From positions 1 through 62,029 of IMG/VR virus record IMGVR_UViG_3300044980_000053: a stretch of DNA of 62,029 bases; one strand, written 5' to 3'. Made by a program: the position numbers and the translations under genes. This DNA comes from a virus. The notes beneath the pieces were generated by a model. That model worked only from the letters and a program-made list of their open reading frames with translations, did not search any database and was not told the origin of the DNA. Positions 35,408-49,130 of this stretch are shown one piece after another. How positions within the stretch are numbered: position 1 is the first letter of the stretch; every line of letters begins with the position of its first letter.

Positions 35408-35989
35408 ATGTACACCAGGAGACCCGCCGCGAGAGACTGTGACCTTATGTTCTTCGATGTCGAGACCGGAGGGCTAGACCCCGATCGACACGACATTATC
35501 GATATCGCATGCGTACGCACTGACCCGACGGGTAAGACTGTCTTGGATGAATACTCATCTAGGATTATTCCTGTCAGGCCTGTCGATGCCGCTGCAGCCC
35601 GTGTCAACGGGTATACCGCTGAGAAGTGGGCGGCAGGCGCCGTACCGCTGAACACTGCCATGGTGCATGTTCTGAAGGTTGCTCGAGACTGCTTGTTCAC
35701 GGCTCACAACGTGAGCTTTGACTGGTCATTCTTAGAGGCTGCTATGAAAGAGTGCCAGCAGCGTTGGCCCAGCACGTATCACAAGATAGATACGGTGGCC
35801 TTGGCTATGCCAATGCTCAGAGCTGGGTTGGTGGAGAACGTCAAGCTCACCACGCTGACAAAGTTCTTTGGAATCGAGCACACTGACGCACACAGCGCGC
35901 TGTCTGATGCACGTGCCTGTAGAGAAGTATTTTTACGCCTTGACTCTGTCTACGGACCTGCCATAAAGTCCCTCAGCTCGGCCCCCTGA
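35408..35989 (+). CDS. DEDDh 3'-5' exonuclease, DnaQ-like (193 aa)
   Basis: MFFDVETGGLDPDRHDIIDI carries motif I (DxE), AHNVSFDWSFLE motif II, and HTDAHSALSDARA motif III (HxxxxD). This is the proofreading/trimming exonuclease fold of DnaQ. It follows the polymerase gene and has a GAGGTAG ribosome site. It may proofread, process RNA or DNA ends, or work in repair. Confidence 0.87.
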   Translation: MYTRRPAARDCDLMFFDVETGGLDPDRHDIIDIACVRTDPTGKTVLDEYSSRIIPVRPVDAAAARVNGYTAEKWAAGAVPLNTAMVHVLKVARDCLFTAHNVSFDWSFLEAAMKECQQRWPSTYHKIDTVALAMPMLRAGLVENVKLTTLTKFFGIEHTDAHSALSDARACREVFLRLDSVYGPAIKSLSSAP

Positions 35990-35992
35990 TTC

Positions 35993-36010
35993 TGTCTTTG
36001 AGCAAAGACA
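35993..36010 (+). other. Hairpin after the exonuclease gene
   Basis: TGTCTTTG pairs with CAAAGACA (loop AG, or GAGC if the inner pair is open). There is no T-run, so it is a weak terminator candidate or the 5' boundary of the structured RNA that follows. Confidence 0.4.
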
Positions 36011-36020
36011 AACTTGTTCA

Positions 36021-36190
36021 TAGTCTCAGAGGGGCACCAACTTTTGCTCTCATAACCAGGACGAGATAGGCTGCGCTGCAGTAGCTGAATCAAGTTCGAC
36101 TTCCCTACGGTTCCAGGGTCGCGCCCTGAACTGCTTGGTCTCAGACTAATCCTGGCGGAGGCGTCCAGGTGCTGGTTATGAGGGCATCTA
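36021..36190 (+). ncRNA. Candidate structured RNA or 5' leader element
   Basis: This stretch has no long frame but folds well by eye. A 15-bp closing stem joins 36045-36059 (TGCTCTCATAACCAG) to 36172-36186 (CTGGTTATGAGGGCA), one G-U. Inside are hairpins CTGC/GCAG (36071-36081), GTAG/CTAC with inner AAGT/ACTT (36081-36108), GTTCCAGGG/CCCTGAAC (36109-36130) and CCTGG/CCAGG (36151-36169). TAGTCT (36021-36026) can pair with AGACTA (36143-36148), a possible pseudoknot. The stem ends about 10 nt before a strong ribosome site, so it may be a free RNA or a riboswitch-like leader. No known family was recognised. Confidence 0.55.
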
Positions 36191-36206
36191 TTTCTTAGGA
36201 GAAGAA

Positions 36207-36245
36207 ATGGCTAGTGTTAACACCGTTATCGGGGTCAAGCCATGA
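36207..36245 (+). CDS. Short leader peptide (12 aa) coupled to AlkB-like gene
   Basis: ATG at 36207 follows TAGGAGAAGAA and encodes MASVNTVIGVKP; its TGA overlaps the next ATG (ATGA). The good ribosome site belongs to this frame, so the dioxygenase may be translated by coupling. A very short ORF can occur by chance. Confidence 0.45.
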   Translation: MASVNTVIGVKP

Positions 36246-36811
36246 AGCCCTACTACTTTCGTAACGGCTTCATAAACGTAAAACTCGAGGATGTACTTAG
36301 CAGCACGCCTTGGGTTCAAGTGACAGATGCGCGCTTAGAGTGCTTCATGTCTGAAAGCACGGAAACGTACACCTACGGTGAAGGGCGCGGTGTGCGGACA
36401 TATCAACCCGTTCCCTATTCATCATTAGCCACTGAGATTCAACACCAACTAAATCGCGATGATATAGGCGGCCTAGACGGAGCTATGCGCGACGTCTTTC
36501 AATATAACGTCTGCTTTCTGAATCGCTACGACAACGCGCAAATGCAGTTAGGTTGGCATTCGGATGACTCTCCTGGCATGAGCCACGAACATCCCATTGC
36601 AGTAGTGTCGTTCGGACACGCGCGTGAGATTTGGTGGCGAGAGAAAACGCAGAGTGGCGTCGTGCCGTTGGATCAGCGGCAACTCTTAGAACACGGGTCA
36701 ATTTTCGTAATGCCTGCTGGCATGCAGCTCACGCATCAACATCGCATTCCTAAAGGAGACCGACCGATGAGCACTAGAGTGTCGCTTACGTTCAGGAGGT
36801 ACGTTCCATAA
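36242..36811 (+). CDS. AlkB-like 2-oxoglutarate/Fe(II) dioxygenase (189 aa)
   Basis: NRYDNAQMQLGWHSDDSPGM gives the HxD iron ligands, HQHRIP the distal His, and RVSLTFRRYV the Arg that binds 2-oxoglutarate and the family end. FGHAREIWWREK resembles the substrate region of AlkB. The enzyme should demethylate DNA or RNA bases, or act as a base hydroxylase. The start lies at the end of the leader peptide; the structured RNA above may control it. Confidence 0.87.
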   Translation: MKPYYFRNGFINVKLEDVLSSTPWVQVTDARLECFMSESTETYTYGEGRGVRTYQPVPYSSLATEIQHQLNRDDIGGLDGAMRDVFQYNVCFLNRYDNAQMQLGWHSDDSPGMSHEHPIAVVSFGHAREIWWREKTQSGVVPLDQRQLLEHGSIFVMPAGMQLTHQHRIPKGDRPMSTRVSLTFRRYVP

Positions 36812-38243: not shown

Positions 38244-38315
38244 GCGGGTATAGCTCAGCGGAAGAGCAGCGCCTTTACAAGGCGACAGTCGGCGGTTCGA
38301 TCCCGTCTACCCGTA
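38244..38315 (+). tRNA. tRNA-Val(UAC)
   Basis: Cloverleaf: acceptor GCGGGTA/TACCCGT (first pair G-U), D-arm GCTC/GAGC, anticodon loop TTTACAA (anticodon TAC), T-arm GGCGG TTCGATC CCGTC, discriminator A. No CCA is encoded. The first anticodon-stem pair is a G-A mismatch; the other four pair. Confidence 0.85.
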
Positions 38316-38851: not shown

Positions 38852-40471
38852 TCAGTAGAACTCGAGATCTCTGCACAACATCCTCCACGCCAACCACGAG
38901 AACAAGTGAGCGTGGAGAAAGTCATCCGGTACGTTGGGCGGATGGCGCCACACCTTCTTCCCCGCTACCGTTGTCTCCTCGTAAACGCTTAAGATATCAT
39001 TGATTGCGGGTTTCATCGCAACAACAGGGCCAAACAGAAATTGTTTCAGTAGTACAGCTCTGGCCCAGTTGTCTATGAGAGAACTGCGGTCGCAGTGATA
39101 ACTGGCGGATTCTGGCGACCAATCCATCGGCTTGGATTTGTTCATATAGCGCACAGCCACCACCCTGTGAACTCCTAAGCGCGTCTTGAGCTCCGCATTA
39201 GCTAGTTGCCCCTCGCCAGCGTCCCCGACGATCATGCTGACGTTCCAAGCGTCGCAAATATGTGCAATCTCCTCAACGGTTTGAAGCATGTGGCCGTTAG
39301 GAAAAATCCTATAGTAAAGTGTCCTAAAGCGGCCGTCGGCTTGCTGCCCTCCGACGTGTAGAACCGTACGCGACTTGTACATACCTTCGCTGCCTTTAAT
39401 CTCGCCTCCGCCCCCTGACCAGTCGACGCCTGCAGTAACCTTTGAGATTCCGAGCATAGAGTCGTTCTCGGGTAGCCTAGAGAGCTTGACGCGCTCATCA
39501 CACAACTCTTCGAGGATCTCTTTCGTAAGAAGCTTAACGCCTGTAGAAGTAGATACGCCCAGGCACTCATTGAAGAATTTGGTTTCGCCGTAGACGGTCT
39601 GTTTATCTAAGAACTCACTCCAGTGGATTAAAGCCTTGGCGTGACGCGGGTCGCTAGTAGGCCACGCAGCAGCGACGTTCCTGGGCATGATGGCCTGGCT
39701 AATATGGAAGCCCTTGATCTTGGCGTCAGGCTTCATGTCGATCCATCGACCCTCACGTGGATTCAAGTTCTTAGAGCACTTCAGGCAAACAGGGCCCTCT
39801 AGACCAAGAGGCCTTATGTTGTCTACGAAGGTGTAATTTCCGCAACCACTGCACTTCATGCACCACTCAGATTGAGTGGACAACTGCCACAAAAACTCAA
39901 TACCGTTCTCAGAAGTCTTAGGAGTCCCCGCGTAGATAGAAAAAGGTCCGTACTTCGACGCGGACATAGCTTCTTCTACTACGGGCACTACTGACTCGTA
40001 CTGAATATCCTGTATCTCGTCGAATAGAGCTCTGTCGGCGGAGTAACCGCGGGCTCTGTCGGCGTCATCGCTGCCATATGTGAACGCCATCTCAGAGCCG
40101 TTGTTAAGTGTCCGTAACAGGACGTTATCAATGGACTCGGGACCTGCAAATCCCTTCCTCAGAAGCGGACTGTAGGCGAGGATCTTGGCGACACGTGTGT
40201 GTGAAAACTTAAGTGTCTGTTCTTTAGAGGGGGAGAGGTAGTAGGCCTTAAAGTGCGGGATACCCATGCACTCGGCGAGCATGAAACAAGCAATGGAGGT
40301 GCTCTTGCCAAGCTGACGAGCGCACTTCAGTAGAATCTTTGAGTAGTTACCGTCGTATATGGCGTAGAACATAGGCCAGTGTTCCAGGGAGAAGGGTTGA
40401 CCTTCCACGTGGAAAAACGACTCGGCTATGTCAGCCCGTGAACCAGAAAGTGTTAGGTCGCTGGCGCTCAT
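38852..40471 (-). CDS. Terminase large subunit (539 aa)
   Basis: ATG at 40471 (MSASDLTLSG) is preferred over a start at 40582 because of the divergent gene's position. Walker A is CARQLGKS (50-57), Walker B ALFDE (148-152), and the RNase H-like nuclease has AGVDW (D350) and VGDAGEG (D417). An insert with CxxCxxC (204-210) and CxxC (229-232) forms a zinc ribbon. It packages DNA into proheads through the portal. Late strand; no small subunit recognised nearby. Confidence 0.9.
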   Translation of the reverse strand: MSASDLTLSGSRADIAESFFHVEGQPFSLEHWPMFYAIYDGNYSKILLKCARQLGKSTSIACFMLAECMGIPHFKAYYLSPSKEQTLKFSHTRVAKILAYSPLLRKGFAGPESIDNVLLRTLNNGSEMAFTYGSDDADRARGYSADRALFDEIQDIQYESVVPVVEEAMSASKYGPFSIYAGTPKTSENGIEFLWQLSTQSEWCMKCSGCGNYTFVDNIRPLGLEGPVCLKCSKNLNPREGRWIDMKPDAKIKGFHISQAIMPRNVAAAWPTSDPRHAKALIHWSEFLDKQTVYGETKFFNECLGVSTSTGVKLLTKEILEELCDERVKLSRLPENDSMLGISKVTAGVDWSGGGGEIKGSEGMYKSRTVLHVGGQQADGRFRTLYYRIFPNGHMLQTVEEIAHICDAWNVSMIVGDAGEGQLANAELKTRLGVHRVVAVRYMNKSKPMDWSPESASYHCDRSSLIDNWARAVLLKQFLFGPVVAMKPAINDILSVYEETTVAGKKVWRHPPNVPDDFLHAHLFSWLAWRMLCRDLEFY

Positions 40472-40532
40472 GCTCTGCGACCTAAGTGTAACCGATAGCA
40501 ACCGATAGAGAAATTTGGGAGGATTGATAGAT

Positions 40533-41822
40533 ATGTCGAAGATCGAACAGAACCAGGTGACCGAGGATACCCCCGCCAACAAGCTGGGGATCGATGTTCA
40601 AACGCCGAACGGCTTCCGAGACCTAATCAAGGTTCTCGCGAGCACCCCGCAAGTCCTGTGCGCGGTGGGTCCTTCCGGCATCGGAAAGACCGCAATCCCG
40701 AAGCAGGTGGCCAAGGAGCGCGGCGCTCCGTATGCCGCCATCCACATGCCGACGATGACCCCGGAAGACTTCCACATCCCGACGATGTCGAAGGACAAGA
40801 GCCAGTACTACGACCGCCGTATCCCGCGCGTCTTCCAGGAGATCCTGGACTACGTGGAGAAGACGAAGGCCGAGAACAACGGCGTCGTTCCTCCGGAGAA
40901 GCGTCCGATCATCTCGGTGGAGGAGCTCAACCGCGCGGTCGACAAGTCCGTGACGCGCGGCGCATTCGTCATGCTCGGAGATCGCCGTATCGGCGATGTC
41001 CAGCTCGATGACTCGATCCAGTTCGTGGCGACCATGAACCCCTCGGGTGGTGGTATGTCCGTGAACGAGTTCGAGCGTGATCCGGCGATGCGTCGCCGTC
41101 TGACGCTGGTGTACGTGGCGCCGGACTACTCGACGTTCATTAACTTCGCCGACGCGGCGAAGTTCCACCCGGAGGTCGTGGCGTACCTGCGCGCGCACAC
41201 GTCGCAGTACTACGACCAGACCGGTGCCAACAGCGGCAAGGTGTTCGCGTGTCCCGCCACCTGGGAGGGCGTGTCGAACGTCTGCTACGCGTTCGAGCGC
41301 GTGCAGCAGCCGCTGACCTCGCCGGCTGCGCGAGCGGCCGTGTCGGGCCTCATCGGTACCGGCGTCGCCGAGACGCTCCTCGAGTTCATTCGTGATCGGT
41401 CAGTGACGATCTCGCCTGAGGACATCCTCAGCGGCTACACCGAGAAGAGCGACGTCCGGAAGCGCGTGAAGAGCATGCTTGCCATCGACGGCGGCCGGCT
41501 CGATCGCGTGACGGATCTCACTCGCGGCCTGTCGGTGCTCATCCTGAGCTCGACGGACAAGAAGCCGGAAAAGCTCGCGAAGCACCTGGGGTTGTTCATG
41601 TCGGATCTGCCCGAAGAGGTCTTCTTCGCGCTGATCAACAACATGACCAACGAGGGTAACAAGGGCGGTCAGGAAGCGCGTCTGTGGGTGCAGAAGATCA
41701 ACGTCTGCATGAATGACGACGCGAACTTCAAGGAAGCGCTCGCGAAGCTTCACAACGCCAAGGAGAAGGCGAACAAGGAAGCGGACGCGTCGGGTGCGAA
41801 GGACTCGAAGGAGTCGAAGTAA
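40533..41822 (+). CDS. MoxR-family AAA+ ATPase (429 aa)
   Basis: ATG at 40533 has GGAGG 10 nt upstream. Walker A GPSGIGKT (about 45-52), Walker B IISVEELN (about 126-133), sensor-1 ATMNPSG (about 167-173) and a later Arg-rich RRRLTL region fit MoxR/RavA ATPases. These remodel or activate partner proteins and usually work with a VWA protein, which occurs at 44545-45870. High-expression codon use resembles the VWA gene. The C-terminus is Lys/Glu/Ala-rich and helical. Confidence 0.85.
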   Translation: MSKIEQNQVTEDTPANKLGIDVQTPNGFRDLIKVLASTPQVLCAVGPSGIGKTAIPKQVAKERGAPYAAIHMPTMTPEDFHIPTMSKDKSQYYDRRIPRVFQEILDYVEKTKAENNGVVPPEKRPIISVEELNRAVDKSVTRGAFVMLGDRRIGDVQLDDSIQFVATMNPSGGGMSVNEFERDPAMRRRLTLVYVAPDYSTFINFADAAKFHPEVVAYLRAHTSQYYDQTGANSGKVFACPATWEGVSNVCYAFERVQQPLTSPAARAAVSGLIGTGVAETLLEFIRDRSVTISPEDILSGYTEKSDVRKRVKSMLAIDGGRLDRVTDLTRGLSVLILSSTDKKPEKLAKHLGLFMSDLPEEVFFALINNMTNEGNKGGQEARLWVQKINVCMNDDANFKEALAKLHNAKEKANKEADASGAKDSKESK

Positions 41823-45872: not shown

Positions 45873-46445
45873 GTGTCGCGCTGGATAAATAGAACGGGCT
45901 CGTGGTTCGAATCAATCGAGGTTATAGGTCACACAAGTAAAACTAGTGTGAAGTGCAGATGCTGGTGCTTCAAACCTAATGGTCACTTGTGCGGCCGAGA
46001 GTTTGTCGTTAAATCGAATAATCTTGTAACAGGAAATACGCGCAGCTGTGGGTGTCAAGGAGAAGCTGGCCGTAAGCAACGGTATCCGAGACCGCCATCT
46101 TTTGATAGCTTCATACGTTCAATGATGTCTATCTATAGATGTGCCGCTAGAAGCCGACAACACTGCCCATTCCGTTTATCCTTCAAGACCTGTAAAACGT
46201 TGTTTTCTTCCAACTGTCATTATTGCAATTTGCCGCCGTCAAACAAGTTACATAGTAACTACACGACATATCAAGGCTTTCGTTATAGCGGTATAGATCG
46301 CTTAAACACAAAGCGTGGATATATCCTGAATAACTGTGTGTCTTGTTGTAAGACGTGCAACTATGCAAAGCGGTTTATGACTAAGGAGGAATTCCTTTCC
46401 TGGGTTGTTCAGGTGTACAAACACCAACACAAAGGAGATTCATGA
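45873..46445 (+). CDS. HNH homing endonuclease (190 aa, GTG start)
   Basis: The N-terminus has one Cys-rich repeat (CRCWCFKPNGHLCGREFVV, later SCGC) as in phage HNH/AP2-type proteins. The C-terminal HNH has CHYC, SGIDRLNTKRGYILNNCV and CKTCNYAKR. It begins 2 nt after the VWA stop, is more AT-rich than its neighbours, and overlaps the next gene by 4 nt: signs of an inserted mobile gene. Confidence 0.85.
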   Translation: MSRWINRTGSWFESIEVIGHTSKTSVKCRCWCFKPNGHLCGREFVVKSNNLVTGNTRSCGCQGEAGRKQRYPRPPSFDSFIRSMMSIYRCAARSRQHCPFRLSFKTCKTLFSSNCHYCNLPPSNKLHSNYTTYQGFRYSGIDRLNTKRGYILNNCVSCCKTCNYAKRFMTKEEFLSWVVQVYKHQHKGDS

Positions 46446-48094: not shown

Positions 48095-48125
48095 GGTGAT
48101 TTTCTAGTGTAGCTTGCTTTTGCAA

Positions 48126-48635
48126 ATGCAGCATTGTCGACGATGCACGAAGTGCAGTGAAGAAAAGGTCGTCGAGGAATTCAGAATAGTAGATTCTGAT
48201 ACTCGATACCATCCATGGTGCAGAGCGTGTGAAAACGCTGCGACTAAAGGCAGCGCCGCTCGCTTGAGGAATAAGGCTGTCATCAAGGAGTACAAAAACT
48301 GCCCTTGTTTCGACTGTCACGTTCAATACCCTTGGTACGTCATGACGTTCGACCACCGTGATCCCTCACAGAAGCTATTTAACTTGAGCGCGGCAGGCGC
48401 AAGACCGCTCCAGGTGGTTCTTGATGAACTAGCTAAGTGCGACCCTGTTTGTGGGAATTGTCATCTTGAAAGAACACACGCCATGCTCAACGATCCCGTG
48501 TGGAAGGCGCAGTGGCATGCGAAAGTTGTTGAGAGTGCTAAACGTAGGAGGAAACAAAAATGTCCACCTACCTCGGAATCGACCCAAGCCTCACAGAATT
48601 CGGCGCCTTCGACAGAAGCGATAGATGTCACCTGA
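48126..48635 (+). CDS. HNH endonuclease, first tandem copy (169 aa)
   Basis: ATG at 48126 is preferred to a TTG at 48114. CRRCTKCSEEKVVEEF and WCRACE form an N-terminal zinc motif. The HNH core has CFDCHVQY, MTFDHRDP (D-H), and CDPVCGNCHLERTH. It is related to the gene at 48693. Its last 76 nt overlap a ruvC-like 5' fragment, so its C-terminal tail (PTSESTQASQ) is read through foreign sequence. Confidence 0.85.
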   Translation: MQHCRRCTKCSEEKVVEEFRIVDSDTRYHPWCRACENAATKGSAARLRNKAVIKEYKNCPCFDCHVQYPWYVMTFDHRDPSQKLFNLSAAGARPLQVVLDELAKCDPVCGNCHLERTHAMLNDPVWKAQWHAKVVESAKRRRKQKCPPTSESTQASQNSAPSTEAIDVT

Positions 48636-48692: not shown

Positions 48693-49130
48693 ATGACGCC
48701 TCAACATAAACATTGCACTAAATGCAAGGAACTTAAACCGATTGATGAATTTGGACGCAACAAAAAGGCTAGGGATGGCCGGTCATCCTGGTGTCGAGCG
48801 TGTACGAATACGAATAAAATGAATAGCCGCGCCAAAAACGTCAAAATCATCGAAGCACACAAAGATAAATCGTGTATGGATTGTGGTATCCAGTACGATT
48901 CATGCGCCATGACATATGATCACAGAGACCCAGAGACTAAAAACTTTGGAGTAAGTGAAGCTTGGTCACGGCCTATTCCAGATATTTTAGAAGAAATATC
49001 TAAATGTGACGTTGTGTGTCTTATATGTCACAGCTATAGAACGCGTGATCGACTATTAAATAACCCAGAATGGAAAAAGAGTTGGCATGCTAAAGTCCTA
49101 GCCAGCGCTAATCGTAGAAGAAAAACATGA
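48693..49130 (+). CDS. HNH endonuclease, second tandem copy (145 aa)
   Basis: The same layout as the first copy: CTKCKELKPIDEFG, WCRACT, CMDCGIQY, MTYDHRDP and CDVVCLICHSYRT, and the shared end KxSWHAKVLASANRRRK. It is clearly more AT-rich than surrounding genes and overlaps the RuvC ATG by 4 nt. A homing gene next to ruvC. Confidence 0.85.
   Translation: MTPQHKHCTKCKELKPIDEFGRNKKARDGRSSWCRACTNTNKMNSRAKNVKIIEAHKDKSCMDCGIQYDSCAMTYDHRDPETKNFGVSEAWSRPIPDILEEISKCDVVCLICHSYRTRDRLLNNPEWKKSWHAKVLASANRRRKT

Follow-up and report, generated by a model that had tools for sequence, protein, structure and literature searches.

A 15-bp long-range stem between an exonuclease gene and an AlkB-like gene in a 62-kb virus: a candidate intercistronic element followed by a 12-codon frame

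The locus lies in a 62-kb virus (IMG/VR record IMGVR_UViG_3300044980_000053), of which the whole stretch of 62,029 nt was analyzed and is referred to here as the window. On the plus strand, a primase gene is followed by genes for a family-A DNA polymerase with a UDG-like domain and a DnaQ-like exonuclease, a 252-nt gap (35990-36241), an AlkB-like gene, a 91-aa frame, a Band-7 protein, a 64-aa frame and a tRNA-Val gene at 38244. The run ending in this tRNA gene is convergent with the gene for the terminase large subunit (TerL), which lies on the minus strand at 38852-40582. The features discussed below are presented in Table 1. The first-pass annotation had placed a non-coding gap of about 250 nt before the AlkB-like gene, and this was borne out: the gap is part of a run of genes on one strand, contains no plus-strand ORF of at least 40 aa and is flanked by two real genes with Pfam assignments. 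The AlkB homologue retains the HxD...H iron ligands and the arginine pair, as do its phage relatives. No terminator and no promoter were found in the gap; the scan for both returned one weak match, at 35940-35969 within the exonuclease gene, a count below the shuffle mean. The small hairpin at the start of the gap has no T-run and is atypical as a terminator.

Table 1. Positions of the features of the gap, its flanking genes and the structured RNAs of other loci
Feature	Coordinates	Strand	Details
DnaQ-like 3'-5' exonuclease	35408..35989	+	upstream gene; PF00929; phrog_192
Small hairpin	35993..36008	+	GTCTTT-GAGC-AAAGAC; immediately 3' of exonuclease stop
5' arm of 15-bp stem	36045..36059	+	TGCTCTCATAACCAG
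Stem interior	36060..36171	+	112 nt; four predicted hairpins
3' arm of 15-bp stem	36172..36186	+	CTGGTTATGAGGGCA
Shine-Dalgarno (SD) region	36190..36208	+	ATTTCTT-AGGAG-AAGAAAT; possible short A+U-rich hairpin, SD in loop
12-codon mini-cistron	36207..36245	+	MASVNTVIGVKP; stop TGA across alkB ATG (ATGA)
AlkB-like 2OG-Fe(II) dioxygenase	36242..36811	+	PF13532; phrog_21963
Structured RNA, locus L040	L040:4471-5544	-	
Structured RNA, locus L042	L042:2242-2470	-	
Structured RNA, locus L043	L043:2723-2801		

Other parts of the window also drew attention. Just upstream of the tRNA-Val gene, positions 38053-38202 fold strongly (composition-adjusted z about -4) within the 64-aa frame, which is itself weakly supported. 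Further along, the open frames at 45873-46445, 48114-48635 and 48693-49130 carry CxxC pairs and are HNH-like in appearance with unusual codon use, and a truncated RuvC-like start (ATG 48560, MSTYLGIDPS) recurs as a full frame at 49127 (MTRYLGVDPS), a sequence pattern which suggests an insertion with partial gene duplication.

The two arms in the gap form an uninterrupted 15-bp helix with a single G-U (U-G) pair, and in the predicted ensemble its pair probabilities were 0.81-1.0, confirming the long-range stem noted in the first-pass annotation. Its rarity was assessed by counting inverted repeats with at least 15 bp, a 10-bp perfect seed and a loop of 60-170 nt. The gap stem is the only repeat of this class in the window. 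When the window was shuffled 150 times with its dinucleotide content preserved, 12 of the shuffles contained any such repeat (0.08 per 62 kb on average), the chance of a comparable stem anywhere in the whole window being about 8% on this look-elsewhere basis. Related phage loci amounting, with the window, to 1.51 Mb held 18 such repeats, mostly within ORFs; the non-coding cases include several low-complexity repeats or extended tRNA stalks. For the 2.4 kb of window DNA outside long frames we estimate the chance of such a stem at about 1-2%, which is unlikely but not astronomically so. Judged by its location, the stem is probably meaningful, if not beyond doubt.

While the complete 151-nt fold was considerably more stable than its shuffles (z = -4.15), the 112-nt interior alone gave a z of only -0.65, with 54 of 200 shuffles equally good, and the stability signal therefore resides in the stem and not in the interior. 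The four inner hairpins described earlier were indeed predicted; given the interior z and a local fold energy that ranks 14th among the local windows of the sequence (composition-adjusted scan, step 6), they are indistinguishable from chance apart from one strong hairpin at 36108-36133, which is well defined in the ensemble. Pair probabilities elsewhere in the interior were mostly 0.4-0.7. The possible pseudoknot was not upheld, as inspection by eye found no convincing one.

Downstream of the stem, the Shine-Dalgarno sequence AGGAG (36197-36201) lies five bases 5' of the ATG at 36207; the strong ribosome site and the 12-codon frame overlapping the dioxygenase start were both found as annotated. 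In the predicted fold this SD was 0.94 unpaired, with values of 0.86 and 0.59 when the 5' arm was removed or blocked, respectively; it was mostly unpaired across all predicted folds beginning in the gap, and dropped to 0.37 once exonuclease coding sequence from 35900 was added. The alkB gene has a weak SD of its own, with a 3-nt match versus 5 for the leader, and its start codon was predicted to be paired (6% unpaired). Mini-cistrons for translational coupling with an ATGA overlap are a known arrangement, and the frame in the window is likewise a short SD-preceded frame which ends across the start of a gene with a weak SD. It differs in having only 12 codons and in lying downstream of a structured gap, and any coupling here is putative. 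Judged by this layout, the frame looks like a coupling mini-cistron rather than an attenuation leader, and the role of leader peptide given to it in the earlier annotation is not favored. The plus strand of the window contains 214 short frames preceded by an SD, and the mini-cistron may therefore be a product of chance. The AlkB homologues in locus L113 and in phage Cr30 (L108) overlap a normal upstream gene by ATGA or by 1 nt, and by analogy the 12-codon frame may replace such a gene in coupling to alkB.

Searches for relatives of the element returned only the window itself. A BLASTN comparison of the gap with phages and plasmids, taken down to E 10, gave chance matches only. A single-sequence covariance model (R1) run against the records of 31 relatives and 50 AlkB-carrying phages recovered nothing but the window, and there was no R1 match in 80 AlkB loci; these searches were heuristic first looks which very diverged copies could escape. 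Pattern searches at the DNA level revealed no other copy in IMG/VR when aimed at the linker, at both arms and at a 3' hairpin, and none in GTDB contigs when aimed at both arms; no TerL relatives were found in GTDB genomes. No Rfam family matched at the gathering threshold, in agreement with the annotation that no known RNA family is present, and at E<=10 the best match was a chance plant-virus leader with 17 bits. A literature search, short of full-text depth, found no paper describing the element. The absence of homologues is not proof, and the searched records may exclude near-identical ones. The element is thus an orphan of unproven function.

The genes around it do have relatives in IMG/VR, with identities of 50-60% for the exonuclease and 55-66% for the terminase, and polymerase, exonuclease and terminase are kept together in these genomes. 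None of the exonuclease and terminase relatives carries such an RNA between these genes. The interval contains tRNA-Gln and tRNA-Ala (L001, L002), an HNH gene and tRNA-Gln (L009), small frames, or nothing, and the exonuclease-TerL interval is a site of gene turnover. AlkB homologues with up to 83% identity are located elsewhere and lack the element. With the 83% identical AlkB gene in L113 directly preceded by another gene and no R1 match in the 80 AlkB loci, the element does not move together with alkB.

The reading we prefer, tentatively and at a probability of about 0.42, is that the gap combines an intercistronic stem, serving in processing or protection, with a translational-coupling mini-cistron. 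The gap would be part of a polycistronic phage mRNA covering the exonuclease and alkB genes, between which the 15-bp helix has the potential to fold. Most likely, a host activity of the RNase III type would cleave or bind the helix as double-stranded RNA, or the helix would remain as a stable cap. In this way the 3' end of the exonuclease mRNA would be protected, and the alkB mRNA would begin at a defined point about 20 nt before the first start codon. The mini-cistron, with its good and exposed SD, would deliver ribosomes to alkB, whose own site is weak and predicted to be buried, and ribosomes ending at the TGA may restart on the overlapping ATG. A conserved fold of the stem interior would not be required.

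Phage mRNAs, for example the early mRNA of phage T7, carry intercistronic stems that are processed by RNase III. As in those stems, the window has a long paired element between two same-strand genes whose layout suggests co-transcription, with no terminator and near a downstream ribosome site. Its arms, unlike theirs, are 112 nt apart and enclose an interior of several hairpins, and cleavage is only putative; no sequence relation is known. Several observations are consistent with an intercistronic element. The long uninterrupted stem occupies a true intergenic gap and is of a class that few shuffles contain, and the same-strand run continues through a gap free of terminator and promoter. The modelled folds place stability in the stem and leave the leader SD open and the alkB start paired, and the ATGA and 1-nt overlaps at the AlkB starts of L113 and Cr30 suggest a comparable layout. 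On the other side, the element is present in no relative and evolutionary constraint is only putative, RNase III cutting is suggested solely by the length of the stem, and a stem of this kind has a window-wide chance of about 8%, next to a mini-cistron that could be fortuitous.

A close rival, which we regard as quite possible though the less probable of the two, is a stand-alone gene for a non-coding RNA; this RNA, about 142 nt long, would be closed by the terminal helix and released from the exonuclease-alkB transcript. It would fill a slot for RNA genes where the polA operon and the terminase gene converge. RNA genes are frequent in the exonuclease-TerL interval, and the tRNA and HNH genes of L001, L002 and L009 in the corresponding interval, together with the window's own tRNA-Val, speak for such a slot. 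More distant relatives, L040 and L042/L043, carry in their polA-TerL interval a structured RNA which is alignable between the two. This RNA (A5/A6) has seven conserved closing-stem pairs and a GCGATGTWCCGTCGC hairpin, and 8 of its 40 predicted pairs were changed on both sides, in a comparison of two distinct sequences only. In L042 a terminator-like stem with a T-run directly follows the RNA, and there is no gene before TerL. Neither the L040 nor the L042 RNA matched Rfam at gathering. L040 contains three copies of a GATGTTCCGTC hairpin core within about 1 kb that is highly structured and for the most part non-coding. These RNAs resemble the window element in relative position, in lying on the polA strand, and in having a long closing stem, inner hairpins and no Rfam family. 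They have no detectable sequence or covariance-model similarity to it, and the GATGTWCCGTC hairpin common to L040 and L042/L043 is absent from the window. Membership of the window element in this group was refuted at R2 covariance-model sensitivity, with no window match at E<=1.

AlkB loci in large phages are often close to tRNA genes, and some of them (L115, L117 and L138) carry stem-closed RNAs without an Rfam match; with L159, these loci hold long-stem-closed RNAs among tRNA genes and so also speak for a free RNA. Across L113-L192 the frequent placement of AlkB homologues near tRNA genes, not set against a background rate, raises the question of action on tRNA. In L159 (143-261 and 333-434), the acceptor stems of a phage tRNA and of a weak tRNA-like sequence continue, through pairing of leader with trailer, as helices of 24 and 20 bp, possibly a processing stalk. 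The window element resembles these pre-tRNAs in that a long perfect helix encloses an RNA domain where phages carry RNA genes, but their interior is a tRNA, whereas neither ARAGORN nor RF00005 found a tRNA in 35950-36300, not even at E 10. In the 350-kb phage of L138, an AlkB homologue and tRNA-like genes lie near three RNAs (1398-1546, 1653-1840 and 2741-2888) with long closing stems of 26, 22 and 13 bp; the first RNA contains two T-arm-like hairpins. At L117:2555-2624, in a tRNA array, there is a sub-threshold YrlA match (Y RNA-like) that scores 37 bits where the cut-off is 69, and no TROVE gene was found in that 619-kb phage record. YrlA and Y RNA-like RNAs (RF02553), which sometimes lie near phage tRNAs, as in the weak L117 match, also have a terminal helix closing a multi-branched domain; the window, in contrast, gave no RF02553 match and its record contains no TROVE/Ro60 partner gene. 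All of these parallels are analogies of place and architecture and not homology.

The case for a stand-alone RNA is weakened by the lack of any sequence or structure match to those RNAs in the R1 and R2 searches, by an interior fold no better than chance, and by the lack of a promoter or terminator of its own. A broader form of the idea, which we consider rather unlikely, is that a free RNA of about 142 nt is one of many unrelated, stem-closed, non-tRNA RNAs in the RNA-gene hot spots of large phages (tRNA arrays and the polA-TerL interval), which would form an undescribed functional class defined by architecture and not by sequence.

It is also improbable, in our judgment, that the repeat acts only at the DNA level or is meaningless, whether as a chance inverted repeat, the relic of a lost gene or a MITE-like unit of 142 bp with terminal repeats. 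The likelihood that the window would contain a comparable repeat by chance, the similar repeats inside coding sequence of other phages and the gene turnover in this interval are consistent with such an origin. However, the repeat lies precisely within the non-coding gap, the arms have no visible target-site duplication next to them, and no second copy of the paired arms was found in the window, IMG/VR or GTDB contigs. A TBLASTX search of the gap for a relic gene gave a best E of 0.018 over 37 residues, which is not credible.

With respect to the riboswitch-like leader proposed in the first-pass annotation, no expression platform is visible because the gap has no terminator and the SD is not sequestered in folds starting in the gap; switching of the SD was rejected, as it is mostly open with and without the 5' arm. 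A ligand-sensing riboswitch or an attenuator governing alkB through a leader peptide is therefore highly improbable despite its fitting position upstream of a gene for metabolism or repair, the short leader frame and the strong overall fold, as there is no known aptamer and no Rfam match, no terminator, an SD exposed whether or not the stem forms, and no such element upstream of the AlkB homologues.

Were the element a free RNA, it would be a further sign, next to L040/L042, L115, L117 and L138, that the RNA-gene hot spots of phages contain structured RNAs other than tRNAs which are diverse in sequence and unannotated. The preferred reading, an intercistronic processing stem with a mini-cistron, predicts cleavage at the stem and coupling through the 12-codon frame. 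If the stem is processed or insulating, it would be another case of phages setting separate levels for the genes of one transcript.
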